From: Gammaproteobacteria bacterium
Lineage (GTDB): Bacteria > Pseudomonadota > Gammaproteobacteria > Natronospirales > REEB76
NCBI GenBank assembly: GCA_035279405.1
Contig: DATEHU010000033.1
Span: forward strand, 202,231-266,230
Direction: 5' to 3'
Length of the DNA stretch: 64,000 nucleotides
The first letter of the stretch is position 1, and each line of letters starts with the position of its first letter. The position numbers and the translations under genes are program-made. This document shows, piece by piece, positions 24,553 to 57,597 of this stretch. Under the pieces are notes generated by a model, which saw nothing but the letters and a program-made list of their open reading frames with translations, was not told the DNA's origin and searched no databases.

Positions 24553-24598
24553 TCACCGGAGACCGGCGGAATTTCGGTCACTCACGCAGCACGCAAAG

Positions 24599-24620
24599 AA
24601 ATGCCCCTGACGGGGCATTT
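24599..24620. terminator. Terminator between tsdBA and tRNA-Arg
   Basis: AAATGCCCC (24599-24607) pairs with GGGGCATTT (24612-24620), followed on the + strand by further T. On the minus strand it lies just past the tRNA 3' end with its own T-run, so it can stop both the tsdBA transcript and the tRNA transcript. Confidence 0.9.
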
Positions 24621-24626
24621 TTTGTC

Positions 24627-24703
24627 TGGCGCGCCTGGAGAGATTCGAACTCCCGACCCCCTGGTTCGTAGCCAGGTACTCTATCCAACTGAGCTACAGG
24701 CGC
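24627..24703 (-). tRNA. tRNA-Arg (anticodon ACG)
   Basis: 77 nt. Acceptor arms GCGCCTG (5') and CAGGCGC (3'), discriminator G, encoded CCA. D arm AGCTCAGTTGGATAGAGT, anticodon stem CCTGG/CCAGG with loop CTACGAA giving ACG (expected A34-to-inosine editing), T arm containing GTTCGAATC. It is transcribed leftward; partial copies of its 5' end lie upstream in tandem repeats. Confidence 0.97.
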
Positions 24704-24975
24704 AAACTCATTTAAAAACATCAGCGGTGGTACCCATCCATGGTGTTCCCGCCAGCCGCGACGTCCTGTCGCGTCGTTCGCCGGAACAAAGCATTGCTTT
24801 GCCTGAAAGCGCCGGCTCACCCAACTGAGCTACAGGCGCAAACTCATTTAAAAACATCAGCGGTCGTACCCATCCCTGGTATTCCCGCCAGCCGCGACGT
24901 CCTGTCGCGTCGTTCGCCGGGACGAAGCTTCGCTTCGTCTGAAACCCCCGGCTCACCCAACTGAGCTACAGGCGC
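24686..24975 (-). repeat. 136-bp tandem repeats, each containing the 5' end of tRNA-Arg
   Basis: The segment revcomp(CCAACTGAGCTACAGGCGC) recurs with right ends at 24703, 24839 and 24975, an exact 136-bp period. Two full units (24704-24839 and 24840-24975) share most of their sequence, including AAACTCATTTAAAAACATCAG and GCCAGCCGCGACGTCCTGTC. Each unit has two hairpins: CGCGAC/GTCGCG, and a second one that reads CAAAGC/GCTTTG in one unit and CGAAGC/GCTTCG in the other, so both sides of the base pairs changed together. On the tRNA strand the copied part retains a D-stem (GCTC...GAGC) but no anticodon arm. Confidence 0.9.
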
Positions 24976-25212
24976 GTGGGGGCGCAATTATCCGGGAGCC
25001 GTGACCGACGGTCAAGAAATCCTGAAAATTTGGGCAAAAATCGCGATGCTATCGGCCTGACGGCAAAAACTCCCGGTTCTTTCAAGCAAGGCAGGGTGAC
25101 CCGCTCGCAACGCTTGGGCTGTTGGCGACACATCGGAACCGGCGTCACCGCGCTGCGCCATGTGCTTGCCGGACGGCGTATTATTGATGCATGAATTAAC
25201 GGAGCCTGCAAC
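24976..25212. other. Intergenic region upstream of rhodanese gene
   Basis: 237 bp between the last tRNA-derived repeat and the rhodanese gene. No convincing gene or RNA was seen. CGGAG eight bases before the ATG at 25213 serves as ribosome binding site. The promoter of the tRNA/repeat transcript (leftward) should also be here, but no clear consensus was found. Confidence 0.5.
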
Positions 25213-36220: not shown

Positions 36221-36267
36221 TCACGGGACCGAGCGCAGGCATGAATGAGCGACGCGGCTGGACCGTC

Positions 36268-36372
36268 GGAGCATTCCCTGCGCCGGTACTAACCGGGTTC
36301 AGGTTCCAAGGGTTCAAATCATCGCGGCATCGCCGGATGCTTCAATCTCAGCCCCAGTAGGGGCACCCCCAG
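36268..36372 (-). promoter_or_regulatory. TPP riboswitch (THI element)
   Basis: On the minus strand: GGGGTGCCCC, then CTGGGGCTGAGATTGAAG with the thi-box CUGAGA, a variable hairpin, and GAACCTGAACCCGGTTAGTACCGGCGCAGGGAAT, the conserved second pyrophosphate-sensing half. It lies directly ahead of thiC. A -10-like TATAGT occurs at 36386-36391 (minus). Confidence 0.96.
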
Positions 36373-36395
36373 CTCGACGCGTGCAACTATAGCAG

Positions 36396-56038: not shown

Positions 56039-56151
56039 TTCTTTCTCGTACAGTACGTAACAAAAAAACCTGGTTCCGGCAGTCCGACAGCGGTACATAG
56101 GCGTGACTTACGTGGCTGAACTTCACAGACCCATCCCTGGTGTGTTGACCA

Positions 56152-56223
56152 GCCCGGATATCCTATCCGGGCGTGAAGCCGGAGCAAACAGCCACCGGCT
56201 GTTTGCAAAAAGCACCGGCTTCA
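56152..56223. terminator. Compound hairpin region between convergent heptosyltransferase and kinase genes
   Basis: GCCCGGATA/TATCCGGGC (56152-56172, perfect 9 bp) is followed by nested stems TGAAGCCGG/CCGGCTTCA (outer, 56174-56182 with 56215-56223) and CAAACAGCC/GGCTGTTTG (inner, 56185-56205). Likely serves to end both convergent transcripts. Confidence 0.6.
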
Positions 56224-56226
56224 CCC

Positions 56227-57597
56227 TCACCCCTCACCCCTTACTTCTTTTACCCGCGGCAATTCCAGCACGGCTTCCAGGCCGCCTTGTGGATGATTGC
56301 GCAGCGTGAGGCTGCCGCCGTGCAGTGCGGCAATGTTGCGCGCGATGCCGAGTCCAAGGCCGTTGCCGCCGAGCTCGCGGCTGCGCGAGTCGTCCAGGCG
56401 GTAATACGGCTCGAATGCCTTTTCCAGCTGCACCTCCGGAATTCCCGGACCTGCATCGCGCACGCGGATGATCACGTCCGCCGCGCCTTCCTCCACGCGG
56501 ATGTCCGCACGCTTGCCGTAGCGCACCGCGTTGCCCACCAGATTTTCGAGGCAGCGGCGCAGCGCCTGCGGCCGAGCGTCGAAGTCGCCGTGCACGCGGC
56601 CGCTGACCGTCACCGTCTGGCCGATTTCTTCCGCGTCGGCCTGCACGCTCTCCAGCAGCGCCATTAAATCCATGGGTTGCGGCGCTTCGCTCACGTCCAG
56701 CCCGCGCAGGAAATCCAGCGTGGCGTTGGTCAAGTGCTCCATGTCGTGCAGGTCATGGATGAATTTGCCCTTGAGCTTCTCGTCTTCGAGCAATTCCGCG
56801 CGCAGACGCATGCGCGTGATCGGGGTTTTCAGATCATGTGAAATGGCGGTGAGCAGGCGCGTGCGGTCCTCGATGTAACCTACGAGCCGGGTCTGCATAT
56901 CGTTGAAGGCGCGGGCCGCATGCCGCACTTCCGTGGGGCCAGTTTCCGGCAGCGGCGGCCGGCGGATGTCGCGGCCGAGTTCACTGGCCGCGTGCGACAA
57001 GGACGACAGCGGGCGCGTCACCCAGCGCACGGCGATCAGCGACAACAGTATGATCGCGATCAGCAGCACCGCGATATCCGCAAGCAGCGGATACGGCCAG
57101 CCGGCGAGCTGCAGCGGCCGCAGATAATCCATGCGCAGCCAGGCGCCATCCGCCAGCTGTACCAAAGTAATGCTGCGGGTGCGGTAACCCACCTCGAAGG
57201 GAGCGGTACGGCTGGCGCGCGGCACCGGTACGTGCAGCATGTAACCGCGAACCGTGTGACCCGGCAATTGATGGCGGAGTCTTGCCTGAAAGTCGGCGGC
57301 ATCTGCGTCCGGTGACAGAGCGCCCGGCGGATCGTCACCCTGCGGCGTGAGTGTGACCGTAAGTCGCGGACCGGTGAGAATGCGTACCACCTGCTCACGG
57401 TCTGCGACCGGAAGATTTTCCATCAATCGCACGGTATCCACATCGCGCTGCACGAATTGCTCGTCGCTGAACGTCACCAACGCCTGATCACGCTCGTGCA
57501 GACTGAGGTAGGCAGCGGCGATCTGTGCCACGATCAAGCCGATGACCAGCACCAGCACCAGCCGCCCGAACAGCGAACGCGGCCACAGGCGTTTCAT
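56227..57597 (-). CDS. EnvZ/QseC-type sensor histidine kinase
   Basis: 456 aa. Two membrane helices (11-32 and ~170-190) bracket a periplasmic sensor domain. HAMP linker follows (VTRPLSSLSHAASELGRDI), then HisKA with His254 in LLTAISHDLKTPITRMRLR, and an ATPase domain with NLVGNAVRYG, RDAGPGIP and GNGLGLGIARNIAALHGG. It overlaps the cognate regulator by 4 nt and is divergent from the RND efflux operon, which the pair may control. C-terminal end abuts the compound hairpin. Confidence 0.93.
   Translation of the reverse strand: MKRLWPRSLFGRLVLVLVIGLIVAQIAAAYLSLHERDQALVTFSDEQFVQRDVDTVRLMENLPVADREQVVRILTGPRLTVTLTPQGDDPPGALSPDADAADFQARLRHQLPGHTVRGYMLHVPVPRASRTAPFEVGYRTRSITLVQLADGAWLRMDYLRPLQLAGWPYPLLADIAVLLIAIILLSLIAVRWVTRPLSSLSHAASELGRDIRRPPLPETGPTEVRHAARAFNDMQTRLVGYIEDRTRLLTAISHDLKTPITRMRLRAELLEDEKLKGKFIHDLHDMEHLTNATLDFLRGLDVSEAPQPMDLMALLESVQADAEEIGQTVTVSGRVHGDFDARPQALRRCLENLVGNAVRYGKRADIRVEEGAADVIIRVRDAGPGIPEVQLEKAFEPYYRLDDSRSRELGGNGLGLGIARNIAALHGGSLTLRNHPQGGLEAVLELPRVKEVRGEG

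Follow-up and report, generated by a model that had tools for sequence, protein, structure and literature searches.

Tandem tRNA-Arg(ACG) fragments as a probable insertion scar of a dispersed hairpin DNA element

We analysed a window of 64,000 nucleotides from a gammaproteobacterial genome, in which an array of tandem repeats precedes a tRNA-Arg(ACG) gene, and found in this array two copies of a hairpin DNA element of about 100 bases, here called E, which is widespread and seems not to have been described before. The probable origin of the array (we put the probability at roughly 0.7) is an insertion of this dispersed ~100-bp element into the D-loop part of tRNA-Arg(ACG), behind a GG, in which the tRNA 5′ end was duplicated; a tandem duplication followed. 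The tRNA fragment at the head of each unit has the appearance of a scar left by insertion, not of a tRNA-like regulator.

Results

The tRNA-Arg(ACG) gene is the sole tRNA gene that ARAGORN predicts in the window. It matches the Rfam tRNA family with 66.3 bits, and the genome's tRNA loci include this intact copy and no other Arg-ACG gene. The sequence CCAACTGAGCTACAGGCGC (reverse complement GCGCCTGTAGCTCAGTTGG) occurs at 24685-24703, 24821-24839 and 24957-24975, at a spacing of exactly 136, so that a tRNA-Arg 5′ fragment is indeed repeated every 136 bp, as an earlier note on this DNA had read from the letters. There are two full 136-bp units, 92% identical to each other, each opening with the first 19 nt of tRNA-Arg(ACG), and both lie upstream of the gene on the minus strand. 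Tandem Repeats Finder reports this array (24685-24975, period 136, score 505) as the only one in the window. The features of the locus, together with a third copy of E in the window, are as follows.

24987-25015, minus strand: promoter-like TTGACC-17-GATAAT upstream of the entire array, kept in relatives, one of them with an empty site
24957-24975, minus strand: head 1, the first 19 nt of tRNA-Arg, sitting where the tRNA starts in the empty-site relative
24863-24958, minus strand: element E, copy 1 (model R1, 95.5 bits)
24921-24939, minus strand: P2 hairpin of copy 1 (GACGAAGC/GCTTCGTC)
24893-24909, minus strand: P3 hairpin of copy 1 (CGCGAC AGGAC GTCGCG)
24840-24862, minus strand: tail 1, an A/T-rich element end or a decayed duplication
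24821-24839, minus strand: head 2, the first 19 nt of tRNA-Arg
24727-24822, minus strand: element E, copy 2 (model R1, 91.4 bits)
24785-24803, minus strand: P2 hairpin of copy 2 (GGCAAAGC/GCTTTGTT)
24757-24773, minus strand: P3 hairpin of copy 2
24704-24726, minus strand: tail 2, same sequence as tail 1, abutting the tRNA
24627-24703, minus strand: tRNA-Arg(ACG), intact (ARAGORN, Rfam, genome tRNA list)
24596-24623, minus strand: terminator-like inverted repeat downstream of the tRNA (inverted-repeat search; absent from a stricter scan)
56124-56226, minus strand: third copy of element E, with no tRNA nearby, immediately following the stop codon of a sensor-kinase-like ORF (56227-57597, minus strand)

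Since the promoter-like sequence precedes the first fragment, transcription of the tRNA would pass across the two units. Elsewhere in the window lies a TPP riboswitch (36257-36380, minus strand; Rfam RF00059, 57.5 bits).

A BLAST search with one unit against its own genome returned relatives beside tRNA-Arg(CCG), tRNA-Phe, tRNA-Ala/Glu and tRNA-Arg(TCT). We built a covariance model, R1, from an alignment of twelve unit bodies. With it, the 2.46-Mb own genome gave 47 hits at E<1e-4, most congeners proved to have copies, and so did 29 of the 276 genomes that were sampled across the class. The search of relatives by covariance model that the earlier note had proposed thus yields copies across genus and class, with covarying hairpins. 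The repeat is not specific to tRNA-Arg, as the approximately 47 genomic copies carry fragments of other tRNAs or genes. A DNA pattern scan followed by R1 placed E in Ca. Muproteobacteria, Thiotrichales, Solimonas, Pseudoxanthomonas spadix, Dokdonella and Thermomonas, and gave weaker matches in Betaproteobacteria and Nitrospira. A blastn search with one copy as the query found no relatives on plasmids or phages, and we found no published description of the element in the accessible literature, which did not extend to bioRxiv and most subscription journals. Chance origin of the repeats is ruled out by their length and genus-wide recurrence, and an assembly artefact by comparable arrangements in several independent genomes.

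The copies share one anatomy. The head, a copy of the target's near end that ends in GG, is followed by GGTGA-P1-(P2 hairpin)-P1′-GAACG, then by the P3 hairpin, whose loop usually contains GGA, by CTGG and further on the P4 hairpin, and finally by the tail and the intact target. Each unit has about four helices, instead of the two hairpins described earlier.

More than half of the own-genome copies adjoin tRNA genes, and 25 of the 27 that lie at most 500 nt from one point toward it (p=6e-6). Of the two exceptions, one belongs to an array and faces its own tRNA target 208 nt further on; the other lies 316 nt from a tRNA, at the end of a thiS-like ORF. The head reproduces either the tRNA 5′ end in sense or the tRNA 3′ end in antisense. 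A search around each tRNA for copies of its own ends showed that units upstream start with the 5′ end of their own tRNA (Arg-ACG, Arg-CCG, Phe, Lys-TTT, Lys-CTT, Thr-TGT) and that units downstream finish with their own tRNA's 3′ end, CCA included; 11 of the 25 tRNA-linked copies are antisense and downstream. Protein-gene starts are entered as well, with the start duplicated; identified from N-terminal sequences, these targets are sucD, hslU, sdhE, a tandem response regulator, xthA and a cold-shock gene, and probably also purA. Heads made of antisense tRNA 3′ ends and protein-gene starts argue against the earlier suggestion of a decoy for RNase P or tRNA enzymes. Two further observations concern the edges of the units. 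Upstream of a tRNA-Pro(TGG), the first 35 nt of one unit come from tRNA-Pro and its last part is the anticodon arm of that tRNA in inverted form, so that the unit could close as one long hairpin (locus L029). At the edge of E, GGGTGA supplies or abuts an ORF stop in several genomes.

Of 161 unique copies, 82 had a direct repeat that stops at E and is 15 nt or longer, compared with 21 of 825 mismatched head/downstream pairs. In the intact copy, GG ends 33 of 40 distinct junctions, where 1/16 would be expected. The repeats range from ~16 to >100 nt, and with such variable lengths they are not the usual kind of target duplication, in which the length is fixed. No repeat was detected at about half of the copies, and some copies lie at ORF 3′ ends.

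Relatives with empty sites were found for several targets. In one congener (G006), tRNA-Arg(ACG) directly follows the TTGACC-17-GATAAT promoter, whereas in four genomes (G000, G003, G007, G010) this promoter-proximal position is occupied by the 19-nt head, then E, the tail and the intact tRNA; two others (G008, G001) have decayed E copies at the same tRNA. At hslU, the close relatives G093 (empty) and G204 (with E) show that the DNA upstream runs without a break into the head and that the second copy leads unbroken into the gene; congeners with and without E show the same arrangement at sucD and xthA. The head thus marks the original gene position in empty-site relatives, with E and a fresh gene start lying inside, after GG. 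Upstream of a tRNA-Met in G037 stand seven units whose heads end at two different points of the tRNA, pointing to separate insertions followed by amplification. That array (C1:1015893-1016866, locus L079), with 7 E units upstream of the tRNA-Met and 2-3 antisense units downstream, adjoins rpoD and is the largest that we saw. Between species, E bodies at the same tRNA keep an identity of 0.89-0.91 even though the DNA upstream of them can no longer be seen to align. Such conservation is a point against the insertion reading and suggests that E has a function, was inserted repeatedly or undergoes gene conversion.

Comparison of the head with the gene at protein-gene starts gave 39 synonymous and 8 nonsynonymous codon differences, where 21% would be synonymous at random; mostly synonymous differences were seen at sucD (L258, L262), hslU (L275, and L203 in P. 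spadix), xthA (L280) and the cold-shock gene (L103). It looks like the joining of two functional alleles that had diverged; alternatively, the head may be translated and under selection. The pattern counts against the insertion reading, in that a dead fragment should not show it. Splicing or ribosome bypass of E has no general support, as the head frames of sucD and the response regulator hit stops inside E. At hslU and sdhE (L105, L203, L066) the head frame stays open through E, with a stop at or just after the intact start codon, like translational coupling.

The helices of E covary strongly. In 111 distinct sequences, 92% of cells pair, double changes occur at all 16 modelled pairs, and 480 double-changed cells were observed, compared with 136±9 in shuffled data. 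The pair CAAAGC/GCTTTG versus CGAAGC/GCTTCG, from which the earlier note had argued for selection on the fold, is real. The alignment had been fitted to the modelled structure, and P1, lying outside the model, served as a separate test: it was fully paired in 109 of 144 copies, compared with 45 after shuffling.

RNA helices tolerate G·U pairs but not A·C. In the helices of E we counted 36 G·U (G·T) and 40 A·C pairs (9:8 in P2, 14:6 in P3 and 13:26 in P4, where the alignment is less secure than in P2 and P3), whereas the acceptor and T stems of the tRNAs at the same loci had 61 G·U and 0 A·C. The contrast is highly significant (Fisher p=2e-13, or 2e-7 with P2 and P3 alone). Because there is no excess of G·U over A·C, we infer that the palindromes are important, or undergo correction, at the DNA level. 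Selection on the fold, or its maintenance, is supported by the covariation, with the hairpins looking as if they were selected or maintained as DNA palindromes, which fits better than an RNA fold. Covariation by itself is no proof of structured RNA, and here the count of G·U against A·C separates the two.

Discussion

Under the insertion reading, E would have entered tRNA-Arg(ACG) after the GG of its D-loop part, duplicating the tRNA 5′ end. The first 19-nt fragment would keep the original tRNA start behind the original promoter, followed by E with its short tail, and then by a second tRNA start that runs on into the intact gene. The second unit would have come later, from a tandem duplication by way of the 19-nt repeats. 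The element may propagate as DNA via single-stranded hairpins, through a host or phage activity or through recombination anchored on the duplicated gene ends, while tRNA-Arg would be released by RNase P from a transcript that spans the array. As for candidate mobilizers, neither a reverse transcriptase (RVT_1) nor a Y1 transposase (Y1_Tnp) appears to track E. RVT_1 was not found within the E-carrying genomes G000, G003, G007, G008, G011 and G037, although a phage or plasmid reverse transcriptase may act in trans; Y1_Tnp is present in G000 and absent from the E carriers G003, G011, G135, G235 and G204.

Could the units instead descend from the tRNA's own upstream DNA, by local tandem duplication or unequal crossover with no dispersed origin? 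The perfect tandem spacing and the identical tails of both units are what such an event would leave, and expansion of this kind happens, as in the seven-unit array of G037. Nevertheless, homologous bodies stand at many other tRNAs and genes of the genome behind other heads, and the empty-site relative has no 117-bp precursor. Unequal crossover, which the earlier note had listed, accounts for the second unit and for tandem copy number; as a full account it is contradicted by the dispersed family, and we consider it very improbable. A better contender, though still a rather unlikely one as the main route, is that E spreads mainly by homologous recombination, with a head-E-head cassette moving into a homologous tRNA or conserved gene start and only rare illegitimate entry into new sites. 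The targets are among the most conserved DNA (tRNAs, sucD, hslU, xthA, the cold-shock gene), the differences between head and gene are mostly synonymous, the hslU head differs from a gene copy that matches the close relative without E, and E bodies cluster by target gene across species and also between Arg isoacceptors. This leaves unexplained the precise GG-E junction and the first appearance of E at each target, and no donor was identified. Spread by recombination may also act alongside insertion.

The remaining explanation, which we judge unlikely, makes E a functional RNA in tRNA or mRNA leaders, for instance a CsrA/RsmA-type binding element, with RNase P releasing E from the pre-tRNA. It draws on the strong covariation, the promoter-like motif upstream of the array and the conservation of E between species at the same tRNA beside diverged flanks. 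It also draws on the GGA hairpin loops (108 of 130 in P3 and 44 of 84 in P4, in contexts such as ACAUGGAUGU), which are strand-specific and suggestively resemble CsrA sites; an RNA- or protein-binding role could also explain the strand-specific GGA of P3, which to that extent counts against the insertion reading. However, the 11 antisense copies lie downstream of their tRNAs, G·U is not in excess over A·C, some P3 loops lack GGA, and RNA folding of the whole array is unremarkable (z -0.95). Rfam matches at the array are to tRNA only, and no family scored above threshold for the E copies of nine further loci. Insertion of a DNA element, with duplication of the entered gene end, is our preferred reading.

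Small palindromes that sit in conserved genes without abolishing them are familiar from Rickettsia palindromic elements and MITE-like elements. Unlike such elements, E leaves a full gene start regenerated beside the insert and does not insert in frame into the product. The Rickettsia elements are mentioned in the same work that describes insertion of REP palindromes in genes (PMC3733652). Like REP, BIME and REPIN sequences, which are mobilized by RAYT, E is short, palindromic and dispersed, and probably acts as a DNA hairpin. It differs in its edge, GGTGAG in place of a GTAG or CGTC tag, in its size of ~100 bp with several hairpins, in its position inside direct repeats of gene ends, and in its presence in several genomes without Y1_Tnp. 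Phage and ICE integration at tRNA genes leaves a partial tRNA duplicate beside the intact tRNA (PMC9897764), whereas E is ~100 bp long, gene-free, and enters either end of many tRNAs and protein genes with one body. Integrase att sites are rejected, as the 136-bp units are too small for an integrase gene and the heads vary by target, with no constant att core. Small palindromic repeats are already known; the gene-end duplication is the new part.

The E. coli tyrT/tyrV rtT repeats (rttR, tpr) form a tandem array next to a tRNA, with units of ~178 bp that all close with an identical 19-nt stretch of the tRNA 3′ end. They differ from the units of the window, which carry the tRNA 5′ end and lie upstream, although other E copies carry 3′ ends; by sequence they are also unlike E, the best R1 score on the E. 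coli tyrT locus being 7.1 bits (E=0.25). A second family of downstream units is found in our genome, with an inverted T-arm first, CCCGAAGGGC...GAGTAATC inside and the tRNA 3′ end last. Its members downstream of tRNA-Ser(TGA) (L035) and tRNA-Arg(CCG) (L024) resemble rtT in the inverted T-arm and this core, and align with rtT (L291) at scores of 36 and 33, respectively, with the Ser(TGA) alignment taking in the tRNA end; maxima in 500 mononucleotide shuffles were 25 and 27. The comparison with tyrT made in the earlier note was thus apt, both for the 3′-end versions of E found here and for the likeness of rtT to these two units. More tentatively, E may represent a new class of hairpin DNA element that duplicates the near end of a conserved gene, with tRNAs and essential genes serving as safe sites, and rtT may be a relic of a sister family.

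If this is true, the tRNA-end fragments that stand in tandem next to tRNA genes, among them the so far unexplained tyrT repeats of E. coli, would be the product of one kind of dispersed hairpin DNA element. It would also predict an activity in replication, recombination or transposition, as yet unrecognized, which works with single-stranded DNA hairpins and regenerates the gene that it enters.
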